A stretch of 38,269 bases of DNA, from assembly GCA_025357215.1 (NCBI GenBank), contig JANXPR010000234.1, positions 1 to 38,269 of the forward strand. The letters run 5' to 3'. The stretch's first letter is position 1. Each line of letters starts with the position of its first letter. This document shows positions 23,847-34,835 of the stretch, in pieces. A model generated the notes under the pieces. The model was given only the letters and a program-made list of their open reading frames with translations. It made no database searches and was not told where the DNA came from. Position numbers and translations under genes: made by a program. This DNA is from Acidobacteriaceae bacterium. Lineage in GTDB: Bacteria; Acidobacteriota; Terriglobia; Terriglobales; Acidobacteriaceae.

Positions 23847-25538
23847 TTGGCTGTTAACGATAAATATGACCGCGTAGGAAAGTCCATGGATGCGGATCCG
23901 GGTGACGGCAGTTTTTTCACCGACGATGAAGCCGCCAGCCTGATTGGCGAAGACATTGCTGCCGCGGACGATCTCGATGATTTGGCGATGACCGTTGACC
24001 ACCAGGGCATGGACCTGGTGGAAGGCGAGCTTCCGTCACAACGCAAGAGAAAGCCTGAGTCCGACATGGACGAAGGCGAAGACATCGACTTCAAGATCAC
24101 GCCGGAAGTCCTGGACAAGACCAGCGATCCCGTCCGCCTGTACCTGCGGGAAATGGGCACGGTGCCACTGCTGACCCGCCAGGGTGAAATTGAAATTGCC
24201 AAGCGGTTTGAGGGCGGGCATCTTCGCGTGCTCAAAGCCATCTCGCGTTCTCCTCTGGTAATCCGCGAGATCATGTCCATTGGCAAGGATCTGGAACGCG
24301 CCGCGCGCTCCATAAAAGAGATCGTAATTTTTGACGAAGAAGACGTTACTGATGAGATAGTGGCCGATCGCGCCAAAGTTACCATCGAGCTGATTGACGA
24401 AATGGCCGCGCACTACGAAAAGGCGCGCAAGCTGGAAGAAAAACTCGGAGAGATCAGCCAGAAGAAAAATCCCAAACAGTACCGCCGCTATTTCTGGAAG
24501 ATGAGCCGTGAGAAAGTCGCCGTCTCCAAGATCATACGTGGCCTGAAGTATACGCATCCGGAGCGGAAGAGGCTCATTGCCATTGTTACCACCACGGCGG
24601 ATACCATGCGCTCACTGGACCGCCAGATTCATACTCTGGAAAAGAAGGTCACCAGCACGCGCAGTGAAGAAGTCCGTTCGGAATACAAGCACCAGCAGCG
24701 CACCAGCCAGGCTGACTTGAAGCGCTTGGAAAAAGAAGCCGGAGCCAGCTTCCAGGACCTGCGCCGTACGCAGCGGGAAATCGTGCAAGGCAACGTGGAC
24801 GCCGAGTATGCCAAGCGCGAATTGGTGGAAGCCAATCTTCGTCTCGTGGTATCCATCGCCAAGAAGTACACCAATCGCGGCATGCACTTCCTTGATTTGA
24901 TCCAGGAAGGCAACATGGGCCTGATGAAGGCCGTGGACAAGTTTGAATACCGCCGCGGCTACAAGTTTTCCACGTACGCCACGTGGTGGATTCGCCAGGC
25001 GGTCACGCGTGCCATTGCCGATCAGGCCCGCACCATTCGCGTCCCGGTGCACATGATTGAAAACATCAACAAGTTGGTGCGTACGTCGCGCCTGTTGGTG
25101 CAGGAACTGGGCAGGGAACCAACGTCAGAAGAAATTGCCCAGCGCATGGATATTCCGGTCTCTACGGTCCGCAAGGTCATGAAAGTGGCCCAGCAGCCCA
25201 TTTCTCTGGAAACCCCGGTAGGCCAGGAAGATGATTCACGCTTGAGCGATTTCATCCAGGATACGGCCGGCGTTTCGCCCGCGGAAGCCATGATCCAGTT
25301 GAACCTGAAAGAGCAGACGGCCAACGTGCTGCGTACACTCAATCCGCGCGAAGAACACATCATCCGGATGCGCTTTGGCCTGGAAGATGGTTCGGAACAC
25401 ACGCTGGAAGAAGTTGGACAGAATTTCCAGGTCACGCGCGAGCGCATTCGCCAGATTGAAGCCAAAGCATTGCGCAAGTTGCGTCATCCATCGCGCTCAC
25501 GGAAGCTTAGAGTATTCGTTGATCGGGAGCGTCCGTAA
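23847..25538 (+). CDS. rpoD: Principal RNA polymerase sigma factor (sigma-70)
   Basis: The 563-residue group 1 sigma factor. An acidic N-terminus (about 1-90) has no clear region 1.1. Region 1.2 is [27 protein letters not shown] (about 92-118). A long non-conserved region spans about 120-315, and region 2 about 320-400 ([53 protein letters not shown]). Region 3 comes next, then region 4.2 with [27 protein letters not shown]. It directs core polymerase to housekeeping promoters. Start is TTG 23847: AAAGG lies 6 nt upstream, an in-frame stop precedes it, and the next Met is residue 14. The primase gene dnaG, often placed directly upstream, is absent here. Confidence 0.96.
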
Positions 25539-26511: not shown

Positions 26512-27789
26512 ATGCCAACAAGGGCGACCAACCAACTTCTGGTAGAAGACGATAAGGTAGCCGGGCGTGTGCCGCCTGGGATCGAGAGGGCGCGCCACTG
26601 GATCGCTCAGGCCCGGCACTTGTGGCGAATGCGCGTGAAAATTCTTCTTTGGGCACTGGCTGGCGGAGGCGCTGCCGCGCTGCTGACCCTAACAATCTGC
26701 GCGTTTGAAGCCACTGTGCAGATCATGCCTCCCGACTCTGGCGCAGGCGGCCTGAGTGCCCTGGCCGTCCCCGCGATGCTCAAGTCTCCTGGGATGGCGG
26801 GCCTTGCCGGCCTGGCCGGAGACATGCTCGGGGTTAAGAGCACGGGGGCGCTGTATGTCCGCGTGTTGCAGAGCCGCGTGGTGGAAGACAACATCGTTGA
26901 CCATTTTGATCTGCGCGCGAAATACGGCAAGAAATACTTTGAAGATGCCCGCAATGTTCTGGAAGACCAAACCAAAATCAACGAAGACAAGAAAAGCGGC
27001 GTCCTGAGCATTACGGTGCGCAACCGAGACGCCGCGTTTGCTTCTGCGCTGGCCGGGGCTTATGTGCATGAGCTGGACATGGTAATGCTCCAGGTAACTA
27101 CTTCCGCCGCGCGCCGGGAGCGCATGTTCATTGAGCAGCGCTTGCAGGAAGAAAAGAAAGTCCTGGACGACGCCGAGTTGCGCTTCAGCCAGTTCGCCAG
27201 CAGTTCCATGGCGCTGGACATCCCGCAGCAGACCCGCGTCATGGTGGAGACGGCCGCGCGGCTCCAGGGCGAGATGATCGCCGCCAAGGCCGAAGCCGAA
27301 GGACTGGAACAGATTTACACGGCGGAAAACACTCGCGTGAAAACCCTCCGTTCGCGTATCGCGGAACTGCAAAAAGCCATCAACAAGATCAACACCGGCG
27401 GCATGGTGAAAGGCGCTGCTCCTGACCCTTCCAGCCCCTACCCGTCAGTCAAGAATTTGCCGCTCGTAGGAGTGGAATGGACCAATCTTTTCCGGAATAC
27501 AAAGATCCACGAAACGGTCTTCGATCTTTTGACGCAACAATATGAAGTTGCGCGGATTCAGGAAGCGCGGGAAATTCCCACAGTGAAGCTCCTGGACGTT
27601 CCGGTGGTCCCGGAACGGCGTCACCCCAGTCCTAAGTTGGTGATGGGAATCGGCGTGCTTATGGGAGCCCTGCTGGCCTGCCTCGGACTGCTATTGCAAT
27701 ACAAATGGAACAATTTGAGCGAGGACGATCCGTGGCGCCACTTTCTTACTCATCCATTCAGTGGGGGTGATGAGTTTTCAGGGAATTGA
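26512..27789 (+). CDS. Wzz/GumC-type polysaccharide chain-length determinant
   Basis: The 425-residue protein has the polysaccharide co-polymerase layout. A basic N-terminus precedes a membrane helix (about 44-65, ILLWALAGGGAAALLTLTICAF), then a large periplasmic part with the Wzz-like FEATVQIMPPDSG opening. Long charged helices (about 190-305) follow, then a Pro-rich approach (IPTVKLLDVPVVPERRHPSP) to a second membrane helix (about 372-394). No tyrosine-kinase domain is attached. It would set glycan chain length together with the polymerase encoded opposite. ATG 26512 is chosen over the in-frame TTG 26473. Its last 40 bp overlap the 3' end of that convergent gene. Confidence 0.85.
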   Translation: MPTRATNQLLVEDDKVAGRVPPGIERARHWIAQARHLWRMRVKILLWALAGGGAAALLTLTICAFEATVQIMPPDSGAGGLSALAVPAMLKSPGMAGLAGLAGDMLGVKSTGALYVRVLQSRVVEDNIVDHFDLRAKYGKKYFEDARNVLEDQTKINEDKKSGVLSITVRNRDAAFASALAGAYVHELDMVMLQVTTSAARRERMFIEQRLQEEKKVLDDAELRFSQFASSSMALDIPQQTRVMVETAARLQGEMIAAKAEAEGLEQIYTAENTRVKTLRSRIAELQKAINKINTGGMVKGAAPDPSSPYPSVKNLPLVGVEWTNLFRNTKIHETVFDLLTQQYEVARIQEAREIPTVKLLDVPVVPERRHPSPKLVMGIGVLMGALLACLGLLLQYKWNNLSEDDPWRHFLTHPFSGGDEFSGN

Positions 27790-29180
27790 TCCTGCTCCGC
27801 GCGCTTCATGAGGGAGATGGCGCATCCGACCAGTCCGAGTTGAACCCATACAAAGGCCAGCAGCGTTCCTTCCGTCGCTTGAAAAGAGACGCAGTAAACC
27901 AAGCTTCCAGTCAGGAGTGCCGCGAGTTCAGGAAAGTTCTGTTTTTTGAGCACTCCGCGTGCTTGCCAGGCCAGAGACACCACGAAAAGACTGAACGCGG
28001 CCAAACCTACAATGCCAGTATCGTGCAGCACGCGCAGCTCCGTGTTGGCGATCCATCCCTGGTCTTCCCACCCTGTAGTCAACGTCTCTCCTAGGCTTTG
28101 CCAGTCAAAAGCCAATTGAAAGCTGGAGGTTCCGCCGCCGAAGATAGGGTGGTTGGCTACCTCGTCAATAGCGGTAATCGTTTGTATGGCGCGGGTCAAC
28201 GTGTTGGGGTCAGCCGTTGGGTCAGAGATTTCGACGGTGCTAAAACGGTCAACGAAATGCACAATTACAAACGGCGCTACCAGAAGAACGGCGGCCAATC
28301 CTGCCGCTGCCGCTGACAGCATCACTTTCCGGGTCAGTAACTTCTTTTTGAAGCTGAACCAGACGACTGCAAGGAAGCCGATAAACGTGGCTCCCAGGGC
28401 TCCCCGGGAAAGGCTGACGATCATCGCGGTCAGGGCAAAGAAGCTGAATCCAATCAGGTATTTTCTGGAATTTTCCTGGACGTACATGGCCAACATCATT
28501 ACAGACAGGGCTCCGGAAAAAGCGCCCAGAAGATTGGCCTCATACTGCAGCCCATAAGTGGCCGCGACGTCTCCGTACTGCTCTACCTCCACGCCCAGCG
28601 CGGTCCCCAAAAAAACGTAAGAGTAAAAACAAATGACAGCGTAGCCTGCCGTGGCGGCGCCGATCCACAACAGAAACTCGAATGCCTGGCGGAACTTTTT
28701 GCGGTCGGCAATCAGAATTCGCAGCCAGAAGTAAGGAAGGATGGCCAGCGTCTGCTGCACGGCCCACTTAACTGTCTGGGCAGGAGAAACTGACAAGAAA
28801 GCCGAACTGACGAAGTTCAAGGACACATAGGCAAGCAATAGGTAATCGGGGAAAATCCAAAGCACCGGTTGTTCCCGCTTTTTCCATACAAAGGGAACAA
28901 CAAATATAAGCAGCCCGCCGATGATGTGCTCGGGACGCGATTTCAAGCCACCAATTTCAATGAAAATCTTGGGGACGGCAGAGGCTGCGATCAGAACGAA
29001 TGCGGCGGCTTCCGGACGCTTGATGGACCAAGACAGGACAAAGGGCACTGCAATGGCGCCCGCTCCCGCAATCACCGCCACTCCTGGCGCGTCCGGCCAC
29101 AACAAGACCGCCAGCGCCGTGATAAGAAATAGCACAGGCGTGGGGTTTGGGACGGACCGAATAGAAGAGCTGGTCTTCAT
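27750..29180 (-). CDS. O-antigen ligase / polymerase-type membrane protein (Wzy_C)
   Basis: The 476-residue, very hydrophobic protein has about eleven predicted membrane helices and one larger periplasmic loop (about residues 315-385). It shows the family-typical pattern DPNTLTRAIQTITAIDEVANHPIFGGG, corresponding to the Arg-rich loop and P-x-x-G-x-G of WaaL/Wzy proteins. These join or polymerise lipid-linked glycan repeats in the periplasm; ligase and polymerase cannot be told apart by sequence alone. Pairing with the Wzz-type gene favours a polymerase. ATG 29180 has no clear ribosome-binding site. The 3' end overlaps the wzz-type gene by 40 bp. Confidence 0.85.
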   Translation of the reverse strand: MKTSSSIRSVPNPTPVLFLITALAVLLWPDAPGVAVIAGAGAIAVPFVLSWSIKRPEAAAFVLIAASAVPKIFIEIGGLKSRPEHIIGGLLIFVVPFVWKKREQPVLWIFPDYLLLAYVSLNFVSSAFLSVSPAQTVKWAVQQTLAILPYFWLRILIADRKKFRQAFEFLLWIGAATAGYAVICFYSYVFLGTALGVEVEQYGDVAATYGLQYEANLLGAFSGALSVMMLAMYVQENSRKYLIGFSFFALTAMIVSLSRGALGATFIGFLAVVWFSFKKKLLTRKVMLSAAAAGLAAVLLVAPFVIVHFVDRFSTVEISDPTADPNTLTRAIQTITAIDEVANHPIFGGGTSSFQLAFDWQSLGETLTTGWEDQGWIANTELRVLHDTGIVGLAAFSLFVVSLAWQARGVLKKQNFPELAALLTGSLVYCVSFQATEGTLLAFVWVQLGLVGCAISLMKRAEQDQFPENSSPPLNG

Positions 29181-29709
29181 TTGAGTCGTCGGCTTGACGC
29201 TGCAACATTACCATATCTGTTTAGCGGGCGCGATTGAGCCCCGGCATGAGGTCCAAGGCTGCATTCAGCAACAGGCGTCCCTCGTTGAGCGGTCAGAACC
29301 TGCCAGCAGAAGTTTCACTGCAATGTTATAAAGCACGGTCCACGCGAGCCGTGTCGCATTGTGTGCCGCGCTATGCCGTCAGCAAGCAAAGCTGGCATGA
29401 GATTCTTTTTATGGAGTTCTTGAATGTGATGATTCAAAGATGCTAGGCTTCTCAGCGTGGGGCAGGGCGGGCTCGCAACGGGCCGGTGGTTGGCGTACGG
29501 CTCTTTGTGTGGCCACGCCGACAGATGACGAATCATCAACTGTGGACGAATTCTAAATCCCTCGTTTTTCAAAATCAATGTTCGCTGTACAGGGCTTCCG
29601 GGTGATCATGCTGTCTGGTGACGGCCCGGCGCGAACAATATGTGAAGTGGCCTGCCCGAGCCGTGCTTGCGTGACTGCTGTTGCAGATTGATTTCAGCCG
29701 GATCCAAGA
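29181..29709. other. Long divergent intergenic region in the polysaccharide locus
   Basis: About 530 bp between divergent genes. It contains copy 1 of the 38-bp dyad element (29413-29450). Short ORFs on both strands look accidental, and I see no other gene. Confidence 0.5.
29413..29450 (+). promoter_or_regulatory. Conserved 38-bp dyad element, copy 1
   Basis: It begins GGAGTTC, then TTGAAT (29420-29425), 6-nt spacer GTGATG, ATTCAA (29432-29437), AGA, and ends TGCTAGGCTT (29441-29450). It is 35/38 identical to copy 2 at 32718-32755; the three mismatches are adjacent and lie inside the dyad spacer. A TTGAAT -35 and TAGGCT -10 with an 18-bp spacer is one reading; a dimeric regulator site is another. 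It lies about 260 bp before the methyltransferase gene. Confidence 0.6.
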
Positions 29710-30441
29710 ATGAATTATTTCTTCAGTGCCGTACGCTCGGTATATTTGCAGTTCAGGGCACGCGATCGCTATGCCGAATACGATAGGCCGGCGGCTGTAC
29801 GCCGTTTGCTTAAAAAGCCGGCAAATCTGATTCAGGTCGCCGCCAACAAGGTTGTCAATCGAAACCGCCAGTTCCAGTTCGATGGCGCCGATCTCAGGTA
29901 CTTCCATCACTATTACAACAATACTTCGCTGAACGAAAGGACGATCGAGGTCCCGATCATGCGGCACTTTATCCGTCCCGGGCCAAGGACGCTTGAAGTG
30001 GGCAACGTTATTAACCACTACTTTCCGTTTCAGCATGATGTGGTTGACCGGTATGAGGAGTACCCGGGAGTCACCAACCAGGATATTTTGCAGTTCACGG
30101 CGCCGCCCTACGACCTGATCATCTCGATCTCAACGTTGGAGCACCTGGGGTGGGACGAACCCGTGGCAGAAAGGGACAAGCCTCTGCGGGCCATCCAACA
30201 TCTCAAGACGCTTCTTGCTCCATCAGGAACCATGGTTGTGACGGTATCGCACGGAGAGAACCCGTATCTTGATTCAGTGATCGACGAAGTTCCGTGCAGC
30301 CGTCATTTTCGTTACCAGCGGTTTGCCCGCTTTGTTGGCTGGCATGAAGTCGAGCGTATTGATCCGCGGACCAGATACGGTTCACCTTATCCGGGCGCCA
30401 ATGCGATTCATGTTCTGCTTTTTCACAGAGAACCGCAATAA
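29710..30441 (+). CDS. SAM-dependent methyltransferase-like protein
   Basis: The 243-residue product has a class I methyltransferase core: RTLEVGNVINHYFP (motif I region, about 92-105), a DRYEEYPGV acidic loop, YDLIISISTLEHLGWDE (motif II/IV) and LKTLLAPSGTMVVTVSHGENPYLD. The first 80 residues are basic and helical. Motif I lacks the usual multiple glycines, so activity is not assured. In this setting a role in sugar methylation or another glycan modification is likely (inference). ATG 29710 has no clear Shine-Dalgarno. Confidence 0.72.
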   Translation: MNYFFSAVRSVYLQFRARDRYAEYDRPAAVRRLLKKPANLIQVAANKVVNRNRQFQFDGADLRYFHHYYNNTSLNERTIEVPIMRHFIRPGPRTLEVGNVINHYFPFQHDVVDRYEEYPGVTNQDILQFTAPPYDLIISISTLEHLGWDEPVAERDKPLRAIQHLKTLLAPSGTMVVTVSHGENPYLDSVIDEVPCSRHFRYQRFARFVGWHEVERIDPRTRYGSPYPGANAIHVLLFHREPQ

Positions 30442-30548
30442 AGTAAAACAGCGATGGGCTAAGTGTTAGTTTATTGTCTTATTGCTGTGCACGGCGAACA
30501 CCGTGGTAGGCGGAAAGTGCGCGACCAAAGTACGGTGATATTGAACTG

Positions 30549-31754
30549 ATGAAGACGCAAACAAAACCCGTCCCGGCAAAAAACACCTTGAAAATCGCTT
30601 TCTGTGGAGGACGAGGCATGCCCTCCTCTTACAGCGGCTTTGAGACTTTCTTTCTGGAACTCGCTCCACGGCTTGCCGCTCGCGGTCATGATGTGACCGT
30701 ATATTGCCGCAAGTCTTTGTTTCCCGAGCGGCCCGATTCCTACCAGGGCGTGAAGTTGATTTATCTGCCCAGTATAGAGACCAAGAACCTGGGTACGCTG
30801 ACCCATACGCTGGCCTGCATGTTTGACGTGGTGCGCCGCGACGTTGACGTTGTGCTAGTGGTGAACGTGGCCAACGCATTTCACTGCCTGATTCCACGTA
30901 TTTTCGGGAAGCGTTGCGCGCTGAGCGTGGATGGGATCGAATGGTTGCGAGGCAAGTGGGGCGTGTTGGGGAAAGCGTTCTTTTATCTAAGCGCGCGCGC
31001 GTGTGGAAAAATCCTGCCGAAAGGCATCATCACGGACGCCTACGCCATGCGCAAGCTTTACCTGGAACAATTCAATACACCGTCCGCGTGTATTGCCTAC
31101 GGTTCCAACATTGGTGTTTCCACCAATCCTGAAGTTCTGCGCCAATATGGTTTGGAACCCGGCAACTACTATCTGGTACTGGGCCGGCTGGTGCCGGAAA
31201 ACAGCGCCGATTTGCTGGTAGAAGGATTCACTCAGGCCAAGACGGACCGTCTGCTGGCGATTGTGGGTGATGCGAACTACAAGAGCAGTTTCGTGGCCCG
31301 GCTGAAATCCGCGGCCGGTGAACGGGTTAGGTTCCTGGGGCGCGTGGACCGACCGGACCAAGTCAAAGAACTCTATTGCAATGCCTATGCATACCTGCAC
31401 GGACACACCGTTGGCGGCACCAATCCGGCGCTTTTACACGCCCTGGGATACGGCGATTGCATTCTGGCCCGCGACAATCCATTTAACGCGGAAGTGCTGG
31501 ATGGCCACGGCCTCCTGTTTCGCGATGCCGCTGATCTGGCTGCGAAGATTGAAATGATTGAGGCTGACCCTGCGCTGGCCGCGGACTACCGCCGCCGCGC
31601 TCCGGAACGCGTGCGTACGGTTTACAGTTGGGACCGGATCGCAGACCAATACGAAGAACTGTTCTTACAGATGGCTGAAGGAGAAGATCCGACTCAAGCA
31701 CACTCCAGTGTGACCGCTGGTAGCCGCGAGTTGATCGCCACAAGTTATGACTAA
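30549..31754 (+). CDS. Glycosyltransferase, GT4 with DUF1972-type N-terminus
   Basis: The 401-residue GT-B glycosyltransferase has an N-terminal domain with LKIAFCGGRGMPSSYSGFETFFLELAPRL and SLFPERPDSYQGVKLIYLPS, matching the DUF1972 acceptor domain seen in rhamnosyl- and related transferases. The C-terminal half has the nucleotide-sugar motif (YYLVLGRLVPENSADLLVEGF) and HGHTVGGTNPALLHALGYGDCILA, the counterpart of the Glu-x7-Glu region. Cytoplasmic; it probably adds a sugar to the lipid-linked repeat unit. It follows the methyltransferase by 107 bp and precedes another methyltransferase by 29 bp. Confidence 0.87.
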   Translation: MKTQTKPVPAKNTLKIAFCGGRGMPSSYSGFETFFLELAPRLAARGHDVTVYCRKSLFPERPDSYQGVKLIYLPSIETKNLGTLTHTLACMFDVVRRDVDVVLVVNVANAFHCLIPRIFGKRCALSVDGIEWLRGKWGVLGKAFFYLSARACGKILPKGIITDAYAMRKLYLEQFNTPSACIAYGSNIGVSTNPEVLRQYGLEPGNYYLVLGRLVPENSADLLVEGFTQAKTDRLLAIVGDANYKSSFVARLKSAAGERVRFLGRVDRPDQVKELYCNAYAYLHGHTVGGTNPALLHALGYGDCILARDNPFNAEVLDGHGLLFRDAADLAAKIEMIEADPALAADYRRRAPERVRTVYSWDRIADQYEELFLQMAEGEDPTQAHSSVTAGSRELIATSYD

Positions 31755-31783
31755 GTGCGCGCCGGTGGAGAGTTTTCCGAAGA

Positions 31784-32500
31784 ATGACAATGACAAAACT
31801 GCCAGAAGGTAAGGGCGAACCGCAGGTTGCTTTGGGATCCGTGCTCAGCGCTTCGCGCTATAGCATTCATCACGATGCAGTTCTCGGAGGAAAAGGCAGT
31901 CGCAATCGAATTTGTATTGATTTGGCGGCGCAAGGGAAAAGAGTTCTGGAACTAGGTTGTGCAGACGGTTTCATCAGCCGGCATTTGCAGGAACGCGGCT
32001 GCCAGGTGACCGCTATTGAAATTGATGCTCAAGCAGCGGAGCGTGCTCGCCCTTGGTGTGAGCGGGTGGAAGTGTACGATCTGAATCGCGCAGACTGGAC
32101 CGACCGCGTGGGCCGGGGCTTTGATACCGTGCTCTGCGGTGATGTGCTGGAGCACCTGGCACGTCCTGACTTGGCCTTGCGCCAAATCCACAAAGTACTG
32201 CCACCACACGGGCGGGTCATCATTTGCCTGCCCAACGTCGCCCACATTCGCATTCGGTTGAACTTGCTAGTGGGAAGATTTGCCTATGAACCTACCGGCA
32301 TCATGGATACCACGCATTTGCGGTTCTTCACCATGAACACGGCCCAAAAACTTATTGAGGAGTCGGGGTACCGAATCTTGTCACGCACCGCGATCGTAGG
32401 TGGTGGGAACGTGACACATGCGCTCCGTTTGCTTTTGCCCGGGTTGTTTGCAGTGCAAATGATATTTGTGGCCACGCCCGTGGAGGCAGGCAACTTATAG
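31784..32500 (+). CDS. Class I SAM-dependent methyltransferase
   Basis: The 238-residue enzyme has a clear Rossmann methyltransferase: VLELGCADGFISRHL (motif I, Gly-Cys-Ala-Asp-Gly), VTAIEIDAQAAERAR (acidic residue for the ribose), FDTVLCGDVLEHLARPD (motif II) and LPPHGRVIICLPNVAHI (motif III). The downstream GIMDTTHLRFFTMNTAQKLIEESGY segment is common in polysaccharide-locus methyltransferases of the Methyltransf_11/23 type. A target sugar hydroxyl in the glycan is inferred. ATG 31784 sits 29 bp after the glycosyltransferase gene, so co-transcription is likely; a second in-frame ATG follows two codons later. Confidence 0.85.
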   Translation: MTMTKLPEGKGEPQVALGSVLSASRYSIHHDAVLGGKGSRNRICIDLAAQGKRVLELGCADGFISRHLQERGCQVTAIEIDAQAAERARPWCERVEVYDLNRADWTDRVGRGFDTVLCGDVLEHLARPDLALRQIHKVLPPHGRVIICLPNVAHIRIRLNLLVGRFAYEPTGIMDTTHLRFFTMNTAQKLIEESGYRILSRTAIVGGGNVTHALRLLLPGLFAVQMIFVATPVEAGNL

Positions 32501-32654
32501 GAGTGGCGGTTGCGGGAGCTGGCCGCCGGCTTCGCCAGTACGTTTTTCGCGGCGTTCCAGGGCAGCGGTGATGAAGGCATCCTTCCGCATCAGGTAACAG
32601 CCGAGGAACTTCAAGGTTCAAACCAAGTTCAACAAGAATCTTGAGTACACACTA

Positions 32655-32685
32655 AAAGCGCCTTTAGGCTGAGGCGCTTTGTTTT
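32655..32685 (+). terminator. Rho-independent terminator
   Basis: 9-bp stem AAAGCGCCT / AGGCGCTTT with an 8-nt loop, then GTTTT. It ends the 29710-32500 transcription unit. Confidence 0.8.
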
Positions 32686-32717
32686 CCGTATGCCTTCAGC
32701 GCGTGACTTTCTTTTCT

Positions 32718-32755
32718 GGAGTTCTTGAATGCCGTGATTCAAAGATGCTAGGCTT
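32718..32755 (+). promoter_or_regulatory. Conserved 38-bp dyad element, copy 2
   Basis: Same layout as copy 1: TTGAAT (32725-32730), spacer GCCGTG, ATTCAA (32737-32742), ending TGCTAGGCTT (32746-32755). It lies directly after a terminator and about 130 bp before the glycosyltransferase ATG, as a promoter or operator would. Confidence 0.62.
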
Positions 32756-32887: not shown

Positions 32888-33853
32888 ATGCAACCAGCGA
32901 ATGCTGACTTGAACAACGAGCAAGTGGCGCGGCCCCCGTCCTCCCACCGGGTCAGCATTATCACGCTAAATTGGAACTGTTATGAGGTCACCCGGGATTG
33001 CCTGGCTTCTCTCGAAAAGATCGATTTTCCGGACCACGAAGTGGTACTCGTAGACAATGGATCCACGGATGGTTCCGCAGATAAGCTGGCTACGGAGTTT
33101 CCTTCTGTCCGGCTCATTCGCAACCAACATAATCTTGGCTTTGCGGCAGGGAACAACGTGGGGATTCGCGACGTCCTGGCCTGCGGGGCTGACTATGTGC
33201 TCCTGCTCAACAATGACACTATAGTGGCTCCCGACTTCCTGAGTAAGATGGTGCGGGTGGCGGAACAACAGCCCTTGGTAGGCATCGTGAACCCCAAGAT
33301 TCTCTACTACGAACCGGCAAACAGGATCTGGTATGCCGGAGGATCTCATAAACTGGGATGGAGTTTTGCCAAACAATTCGGCGTCAATCAGATTGACACA
33401 GGAAAATATGATCAGCCGCGGGAGGTTACCTTTTCTACCGGTTGCGCGATGCTGATGAGAAGCCAGGTCATCCGAGAGATTGGGCTGTTGGATGAAGCGT
33501 TCTTTTTTGGTTTTGAAGATCTTGACTGGTGCATTCGCGCACGCAAAGCGGGATACAAAGCTTACTACGAGCCGGCGGCGGTAGTCTGGCACCATGTGGG
33601 CTTTGTGACAAAAAGGAACCTGGGCAAGGCGGCCAAGGACTTCGAATATGTCAGGAACAGTGTGATCCTTGCCCGAAAATACTTTCGCGCCTGGCATTGG
33701 TTTTCGTACATACCATCTTTAGGTTGGTTTCTGGCATATCGGACCGTGGGTTATCTGGTTCGTATGGAGCCGCAACGCGCGAAAGCGCTTTACCGGGGAA
33801 TGTGGTGCGGCGCTATGGCACGAATCAACGGTACCAACGACAATGCTGTTTAA
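32888..33853 (+). CDS. Family 2 glycosyltransferase, rhamnosyltransferase-like
   Basis: The 321-residue GT-A enzyme has VSIITLNWNCYEVTRDCL at the nucleotide-binding start, VVLVDNGSTDGSADKL, HNLGFAAGNNVGI and YVLLLNNDTIV (the Asp-x-Asp-like metal site, Asn-Asn-Asp). FSTGCAMLMRSQVIREIGLLDEAFFFGFEDLDWCIRA contains the catalytic-base Glu-Asp motif. The C-terminus carries a short amphipathic/hydrophobic region (WFSYIPSLGWFLAY). It is closest to the WcaA/rhamnosyltransferase group; with rfbC, rfbD, rfbA and rfbB nearby, dTDP-rhamnose is a reasonable donor (inference). No strong ribosome-binding site is visible. Confidence 0.87.
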   Translation: MQPANADLNNEQVARPPSSHRVSIITLNWNCYEVTRDCLASLEKIDFPDHEVVLVDNGSTDGSADKLATEFPSVRLIRNQHNLGFAAGNNVGIRDVLACGADYVLLLNNDTIVAPDFLSKMVRVAEQQPLVGIVNPKILYYEPANRIWYAGGSHKLGWSFAKQFGVNQIDTGKYDQPREVTFSTGCAMLMRSQVIREIGLLDEAFFFGFEDLDWCIRARKAGYKAYYEPAAVVWHHVGFVTKRNLGKAAKDFEYVRNSVILARKYFRAWHWFSYIPSLGWFLAYRTVGYLVRMEPQRAKALYRGMWCGAMARINGTNDNAV

Positions 33854-33956
33854 ATTGCTCCGAGAAGAATGACCGGCGATCGCAGTGACATTCTCGAGTA
33901 CCTCGCGGTTAAACGTGCGCGTGCGGCGTCGGTGCATTCACGGAAAGGAGCCGTTC

Positions 33957-34835
33957 ATGCGGATCGCCGTGGTTGGAGCCAACGGGCAGTTGGGCCATGA
34001 CGTTGTGGCTTCGTTCCAGAACAACGGCGATGACGTTGTCGCGATGACCCATCAGGACGTGAGCGTTGACTCTCCGGAATCGGTGACGCGAGCGCTAGAG
34101 GCGGCGCGTCCCGAGATCGTAGTGAATGCCGCCGCATTTAATCACGTTGAAAAGTGCGAGACCGAGCCGGGTCTGGCTTTTGCCGTGAATGCGCTTGGGG
34201 TCCGCAATGTTGCCCGCAGCAGTGCATCTCTGCAAGCTCGGCTGTTTCACATCAGCACGGACTATGTCTTTGACGGCGCCAAGGGCAGCCCGTACGTCGA
34301 AGACGACCTACCTTGTCCGCTCAACGTTTACGGCAACAGCAAGCTGGCTGGAGAGTACTTTGTGCGATCCGGGAATCCGCGGCACTTTGTACTGCGAGTG
34401 TCAGCCATTTACGGCTTGCATCCTTGCCGCACCAAAGGCGGATTGAATTTTGTGGAGATGATGCTCAAACTGGCCACAGAACGCGAGCGGCTTCGCGTTG
34501 TTGACGACGAATTTGTCAGCCCGACTTCAACCGTGGAAATCGCACGGCAGATCGTGAAGCTAAGCCGTACGGAGGAATACGGACTCTACCATGCATCGGC
34601 GGAAGGAAGTTGCTCGTGGCGCCAATTTGCGCAGGCCATTTTTGAAATTACCGGAACAAGGACGCCCGTGGATCCAGCTCTGCCCGGAGAGTTCGCCACC
34701 AAGGTGGTTCGGCCCAAGTTTTCCGTGCTGGAAAATAGCGAGCTGAAACGCAAATCCCTCAATTTGTTTGGCCACTGGAAAGACGGACTGAAAGCCTACT
34801 TTGCCGCGCGAGAACGCGCCCAAGCCGGCCAGTAG
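33957..34835 (+). CDS. rfbD: dTDP-4-dehydrorhamnose reductase
   Basis: The 292-residue SDR-fold enzyme performs the final, NAD(P)H-dependent step of dTDP-L-rhamnose synthesis. Seen: MRIAVVGANGQLGHDV (Gly-x-x-Gly-x-x-Gly), NAAAFNHVEKCE, FHISTDYVFDGAKGSPYVEDD and the catalytic Tyr-Lys in YGNSKLAGEY. The C-terminal substrate part has GLYHASAEGSCSWRQFAQAIF and RPKFSVLENSEL. ATG 33957 is set by AAGGAG (33945-33950) at 6 nt; the frame is open upstream to 33885 without family similarity. It follows the family 2 glycosyltransferase by 103 bp, probably in one unit. Confidence 0.94.
   Translation: MRIAVVGANGQLGHDVVASFQNNGDDVVAMTHQDVSVDSPESVTRALEAARPEIVVNAAAFNHVEKCETEPGLAFAVNALGVRNVARSSASLQARLFHISTDYVFDGAKGSPYVEDDLPCPLNVYGNSKLAGEYFVRSGNPRHFVLRVSAIYGLHPCRTKGGLNFVEMMLKLATERERLRVVDDEFVSPTSTVEIARQIVKLSRTEEYGLYHASAEGSCSWRQFAQAIFEITGTRTPVDPALPGEFATKVVRPKFSVLENSELKRKSLNLFGHWKDGLKAYFAARERAQAGQ

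Follow-up and report, generated by a model that had tools for sequence, protein, structure and literature searches.

Several described systems come close to the 38-bp element that occurs twice in the polysaccharide locus studied here. The ARG box of ArgR has the form wnTGAAT-N4-ATTCAnw. Mobile dif modules bounded by XerC/XerD sites are known in Acinetobacter plasmids. RfaH works through a 12-nt ops element in the leaders of RfaH-activated operons, and capsule and lipopolysaccharide genes are activated by NusG paralogues (PMC6391919).

The element analyzed here shares features with each of these systems and also with sigma-70 promoters that carry an operator. Like a sigma-70 promoter, it combines TTGA.. 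and TAnnnT hexamers, separated by 18 bp, with a TG that precedes TAnnnT; its dyad overlaps the first hexamer, and it is placed ahead of operons; its -10, however, is weak compared with the tRNA promoters of the same genome. As a short conserved sequence upstream of polysaccharide operons, it resembles the JUMPstart/ops sequences of RfaH-controlled polysaccharide operons, but it carries no ops sequence, and both the dyad and the promoter-like hexamers suggest initiation, not elongation. Its TGAAT/ATTCA half-sites stand in inverted repeat as in the ARG box, as that box is generally described, whereas the spacer is 6 instead of 4 nt, no arginine genes follow, and only 2 sites are present in the genome. 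Two arms around a 6-bp variable spacer, in direct repeats that bound a gene module, are also found in Xer dif/pdif sites, although the arm sequence does not match theirs and there is no third site. Judged from the sequence, the element is a genome-private, nonrandom, duplicated intergenic element that most likely serves as a promoter/operator common to 2 glycan operons. It is real but local and fairly ordinary, an instance of a common kind of thing.

We identified the 2 copies of the core as direct repeats on the same strand around a 3.3-kb segment of the window (the whole stretch of 38,269 nucleotides that was analyzed), each with a similar region on its left:

29413-29450, plus strand: core copy 1, with dyad arms at 29420-29425 and 29432-29437, identical to copy 2 at 35 of 38 positions
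32718-32755, plus strand: core copy 2, with dyad arms at 32725-32730 and 32737-32742
29347-29412, plus strand: left flank of copy 1, decayed; homology to 32664-32717 from gapped alignment and shuffles
32664-32717, plus strand: homologous counterpart of 29347-29412 to the left of copy 2, overlapping the terminator at 32655-32680

The cores align without gaps, and their 3 differences are adjacent (TGA in copy 1, CCG in copy 2) and lie within the 6-nt dyad spacer, with the TTGAAT-N6-ATTCAA arms perfect in both copies. The coordinates, the identity, the consecutive spacer differences, and the perfect arms given in the original prediction were all re-found; its view of conserved half-sites with a free spacer agrees with the perfect arms and the 3 spacer changes but remains a weak generalization from 2 copies. 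The window contains 2 matches to a 31-base core pattern, whereas 100 dinucleotide-preserving shuffles of it contained none, and the next-best ungapped match to the 38-bp core in the window reached 22 of 38 positions. With copy 2 as a BLAST query against the whole genome (4.98 Mb in 593 contigs, 92% complete), copy 1 was found at an E value of 5.6e-11 and the next match at 0.03. The 38-bp repeat is not due to chance. A reading of the element as a dispersed repeat found no support, since that search returned copy 1 and then nothing better than E 0.03.

Similarity between the copies reached approximately 60 to 75 bp beyond the core on the left in a gapped and decayed form, with the alignment starting at about 29347 and 32664, ending at the core, and containing gaps of 3 and 12 nt. 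When 60 nt of left flank were aligned with gaps, the score was 17 against a shuffle mean of 8.4. Neither 2,000 shuffles nor 5,000 intergenic 60-mer pairs drawn at random from this genome produced such a score; with 75-nt flanks, likewise, 0 of 2,000 shuffles were as good. The weaker leftward similarity that had been proposed is thus real and longer than was stated, and because it extends in decayed form beyond the core, the intergenic region was probably duplicated. On the right, no similarity of the 2 copies was detected over the first 60 nt in a shuffle test, and at 100 to 130 nt it was marginal (10 of 2,000 shuffles as good at 130 nt). The alignments suggest that an intergenic region was copied and that TAGGCTT marks its right edge or the end of its conserved part.

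The same pattern bears on the main rival of the promoter/operator reading, a functionless relic in which a short intergenic stretch was copied and the core is nothing but its best-preserved part, for example, if recombination had inserted or rearranged the operon at 29710-32500 within the locus. We regard such a relic as possible but rather unlikely. It would account for direct repeats that flank the 3.3-kb segment, for the presence of only 2 copies in the genome, and for the abrupt, breakpoint-like end of identity at the right end of the core, beyond which the flank is at chance level for 60 nt, but the left flank has decayed with indels and the core has not, with the core changes confined to the dyad spacer. 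The core was identical at 35 of 38 positions without gaps, compared with 35 of 47 aligned positions with indels in the left flank (Fisher P = 0.045). As there are only 2 copies, this conservation could in part stem from a breakpoint or from the duplication being young, and not from selection.

The genes and the terminator around the 2 copies are as follows:

27750-29180, minus strand: Wzy_C/O-antigen-ligase-type gene, to the left of the gap that holds copy 1
29710-32500, plus strand: operon after copy 1, with methyltransferase-like, GT4-type glycosyltransferase, and methyltransferase genes (Pfam)
32655-32680, plus strand: intrinsic terminator before copy 2, with a 10-pair stem and a T-rich tail
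32888-34835, plus strand: operon after copy 2, with GT2 glycosyltransferase and RmlD genes (Pfam)

Copy 1 sits in the 530-bp gap between the minus-strand gene and the plus-strand operon, and copy 2 between the terminator and the glycosyltransferase gene, both as originally described. The copies lie 260 bp (copy 1) and 133 bp (copy 2) upstream of plus-strand glycan operons and have the same orientation as the genes, so placement and orientation fit the proposed promoter- or operator-like position. For the methyltransferase-like gene at 29710-30441, the first after copy 1, the Pfam match was below threshold. A search of 89 other genomes gave no relative of this gene, in contrast to the glycosyltransferase after copy 2, and this would suit the relic reading; base composition, however, is uniform across the region, with the 3.3-kb segment the same as its surroundings. 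A mobile 3.3-kb module could also be bounded by a pair of site-specific recombination sites, used by a tyrosine recombinase with a 6-bp spacer in the manner of dif modules. Conserved arms, a variable 6-bp spacer, and direct repeats flanking an operon agree with this, but we consider it extremely unlikely: the best match to Escherichia coli dif, which may not be the dif of this organism, was 13 of 28 positions and not clearly above that of a random 28-mer slid along 60 bases, no integrase was identified among the window genes scanned, the conserved part runs asymmetrically to TGCTAGGCTT, and the genome holds no third copy.

A duplicated promoter/operator is favored because of the placement and orientation of the copies, the terminator that precedes copy 2, and the smaller change in the core than in its left flank; a new promoter is needed at copy 2 because a good terminator directly precedes it. 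We put at about an even chance the explanation that an intergenic control region was duplicated within the locus, with each copy heading a plus-strand glycan operon. The putative promoter, read from the sequence of the core, would consist of TTGAAT, 18 bp, and an extended TGC-TAGGCT:

29420-29449, plus strand: copy 1 of the promoter-like TTGAAT-18-TAGGCT, the second hexamer preceded by TGC
32725-32754, plus strand: copy 2 of the promoter-like TTGAAT-18-TAGGCT, the second hexamer preceded by TGC, scoring 5.4 bits in the tRNA -10 model

The left arm of the dyad may double as the -35 element, with the dyad lying over the -35 and part of the spacer. A dimeric protein on the dyad could then either compete with RNA polymerase or be positioned to help it; the position of the dyad would suit a repressor or an activator contacting polymerase, and the bound protein would co-regulate both glycan operons. 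The tRNA promoters of this genome carry an extended -10 of the form TGnTAnaaT, and TGCTAGGCT fits their TGnTAnnnT frame without their A's. With a -10 model trained on the regions upstream of the genome's tRNA genes, copy 2 scored 5.4 bits compared with 7 to 14 bits for most tRNA promoters, and approximately 0.4% of intergenic positions scored as well. In copy 1, TGCTAGGCT fell outside the top 5 -10 sites of its gap, where a better -10 was found at 29324-29335. A simple sigma-70 consensus scan did not list the element, and general upstream regions in a 0.5-Mb sample of the genome gave no clear promoter consensus, the statistics of that sample being too weak. We also counted against the promoter reading the 260 bp between copy 1 and its gene and the lack of relatives in other genomes. 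The promoter is therefore put forward only as a plausible candidate; it is weak, which is compatible with a regulated promoter. If the promoter reading is true, it would show how duplication of an intergenic region can bring another operon of a polysaccharide locus under shared control, and the 2 copies would offer 1 promoter pair open to testing in a lineage that has received little study.

We searched for further copies of the element in the genome, its relatives, and wider collections. The full element with up to 3 mismatches matched only the 2 copies in its own genome, and at the same tolerance the 31-base pattern was absent from the 149 other relatives of a 150-genome set. Across 398 family genomes, again with up to 3 mismatches, there was 1 other match, whose 3 mismatches break the dyad and which lies inside long open frames; a reversed-pattern control likewise gave 1 match, in a different genome, and the single match is at chance level. 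The first 28 bases, searched exactly, matched once in 84,980 species genomes, in a coding-looking planctomycete stretch, a frequency about that of chance by a simple count, and did not match in viral contigs. When 120 genomes were scanned with a profile built from the duplicated region (124 columns), the other 119 gave 6 weak matches, with per-genome E values no better than 0.005 and a total within the chance expectation; 3 of these were read with their surroundings, and none was upstream of glycan genes. The element was also absent from the DNA examined around same-genus relatives of the glycosyltransferase of copy 2. Thus, the pattern search proposed in the original prediction, run in the genome and its relatives, recovered both copies and no further credible match, and the element pair is private to 1 genome among those searched. 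The element is local to that genome, and the general picture is unchanged. In 2 same-genus relatives, we observed a shared conserved intergenic region approximately 150 bp ahead of the gene homologous to the glycosyltransferase; it includes a promoter-like TGTTAAACTAGC and has no resemblance to the 38-bp element.

The dyad alone, with 1 mismatch allowed, occurred at 13 further places in the genome, 12 of them within open frames 100 codons or longer and 1 outside such frames. There was no sign of a regulon of operator sites, with 2 full sites only and single-mismatch dyads mostly within long open reading frames, and the dimeric regulator with a set of glycan targets that had been envisaged was not borne out, given 2 full sites and no credible relative in other genomes. 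A narrower version, in which a lineage-specific dimeric regulator with just 2 operator sites co-controls the 2 glycan operons and its operator-promoter spread by duplication of the intergenic region, appears improbable. If true, the copying of a terminator-promoter junction would have created a regulon of very small size.

The core can also be read as a short or decayed coding repeat on the minus strand, with the peptide SLASLNH-x-IQEL, an alternative raised together with the original prediction. The frame is open in both copies and is the least unlike coding of the 3 minus-strand frames over the shared region; the left-flank gaps of 3 and 12 nt in one alignment preserve it, and the left-flank mismatches number 3, 5, and 8 at codon positions 1, 2, and 3 (8 of 16 at the third). 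The coding log-likelihoods of the 2 minus-strand open reading frames, however, were -12.4 and -17.3, compared with positive values for 3 neighboring genes, and protein similarity outside the core was no better than that of shuffles (493 and 469 of 2,000). The peptides had no Pfam match above the cut-off, no NCBIfam match, and no plasmid match, with a PHROG match at chance level only, and the frame of copy 2 passes through the terminator. In 299 other genomes, the best match had an E value of 5e-4 per genome, approximately chance for 300 genomes, and falls in a frame that we take to be dihydroxy-acid dehydratase (IlvD)-like. With coding scores below zero and no credible relative, we largely set this alternative aside and leave it a small probability on account of the frame-preserving gaps and the third-position bias.

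If the element were instead a transcribed leader read by a specialised NusG paralogue, in antitermination of the RfaH/ops kind, a polysaccharide locus would be a fitting target, and a second NusG-like gene is indeed present in the genome. We consider this very unlikely: the best correspondence to ops was 6 of 12 positions, RNA folds of the core were no better than those of shuffles, and the paralogue lies on a different contig from the element. A structured RNA element was not supported, with no Rfam match in the window and the same result for the folds. Because the core folds no better than shuffles, any function it has is probably exerted as DNA, in line with the promoter/operator reading. 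The second NusG-like gene (C315:2683-2961, 170 aa) is apparently of the specialised RfaH/UpxY kind and adjoins an apparent LuxR-type regulator. Within the window, a sigma-70 factor of 563 aa with regions 1.2, 2, 3, and 4 is encoded at 23847-25538, at the edge of the polysaccharide locus and directly before an rmlC-type gene.
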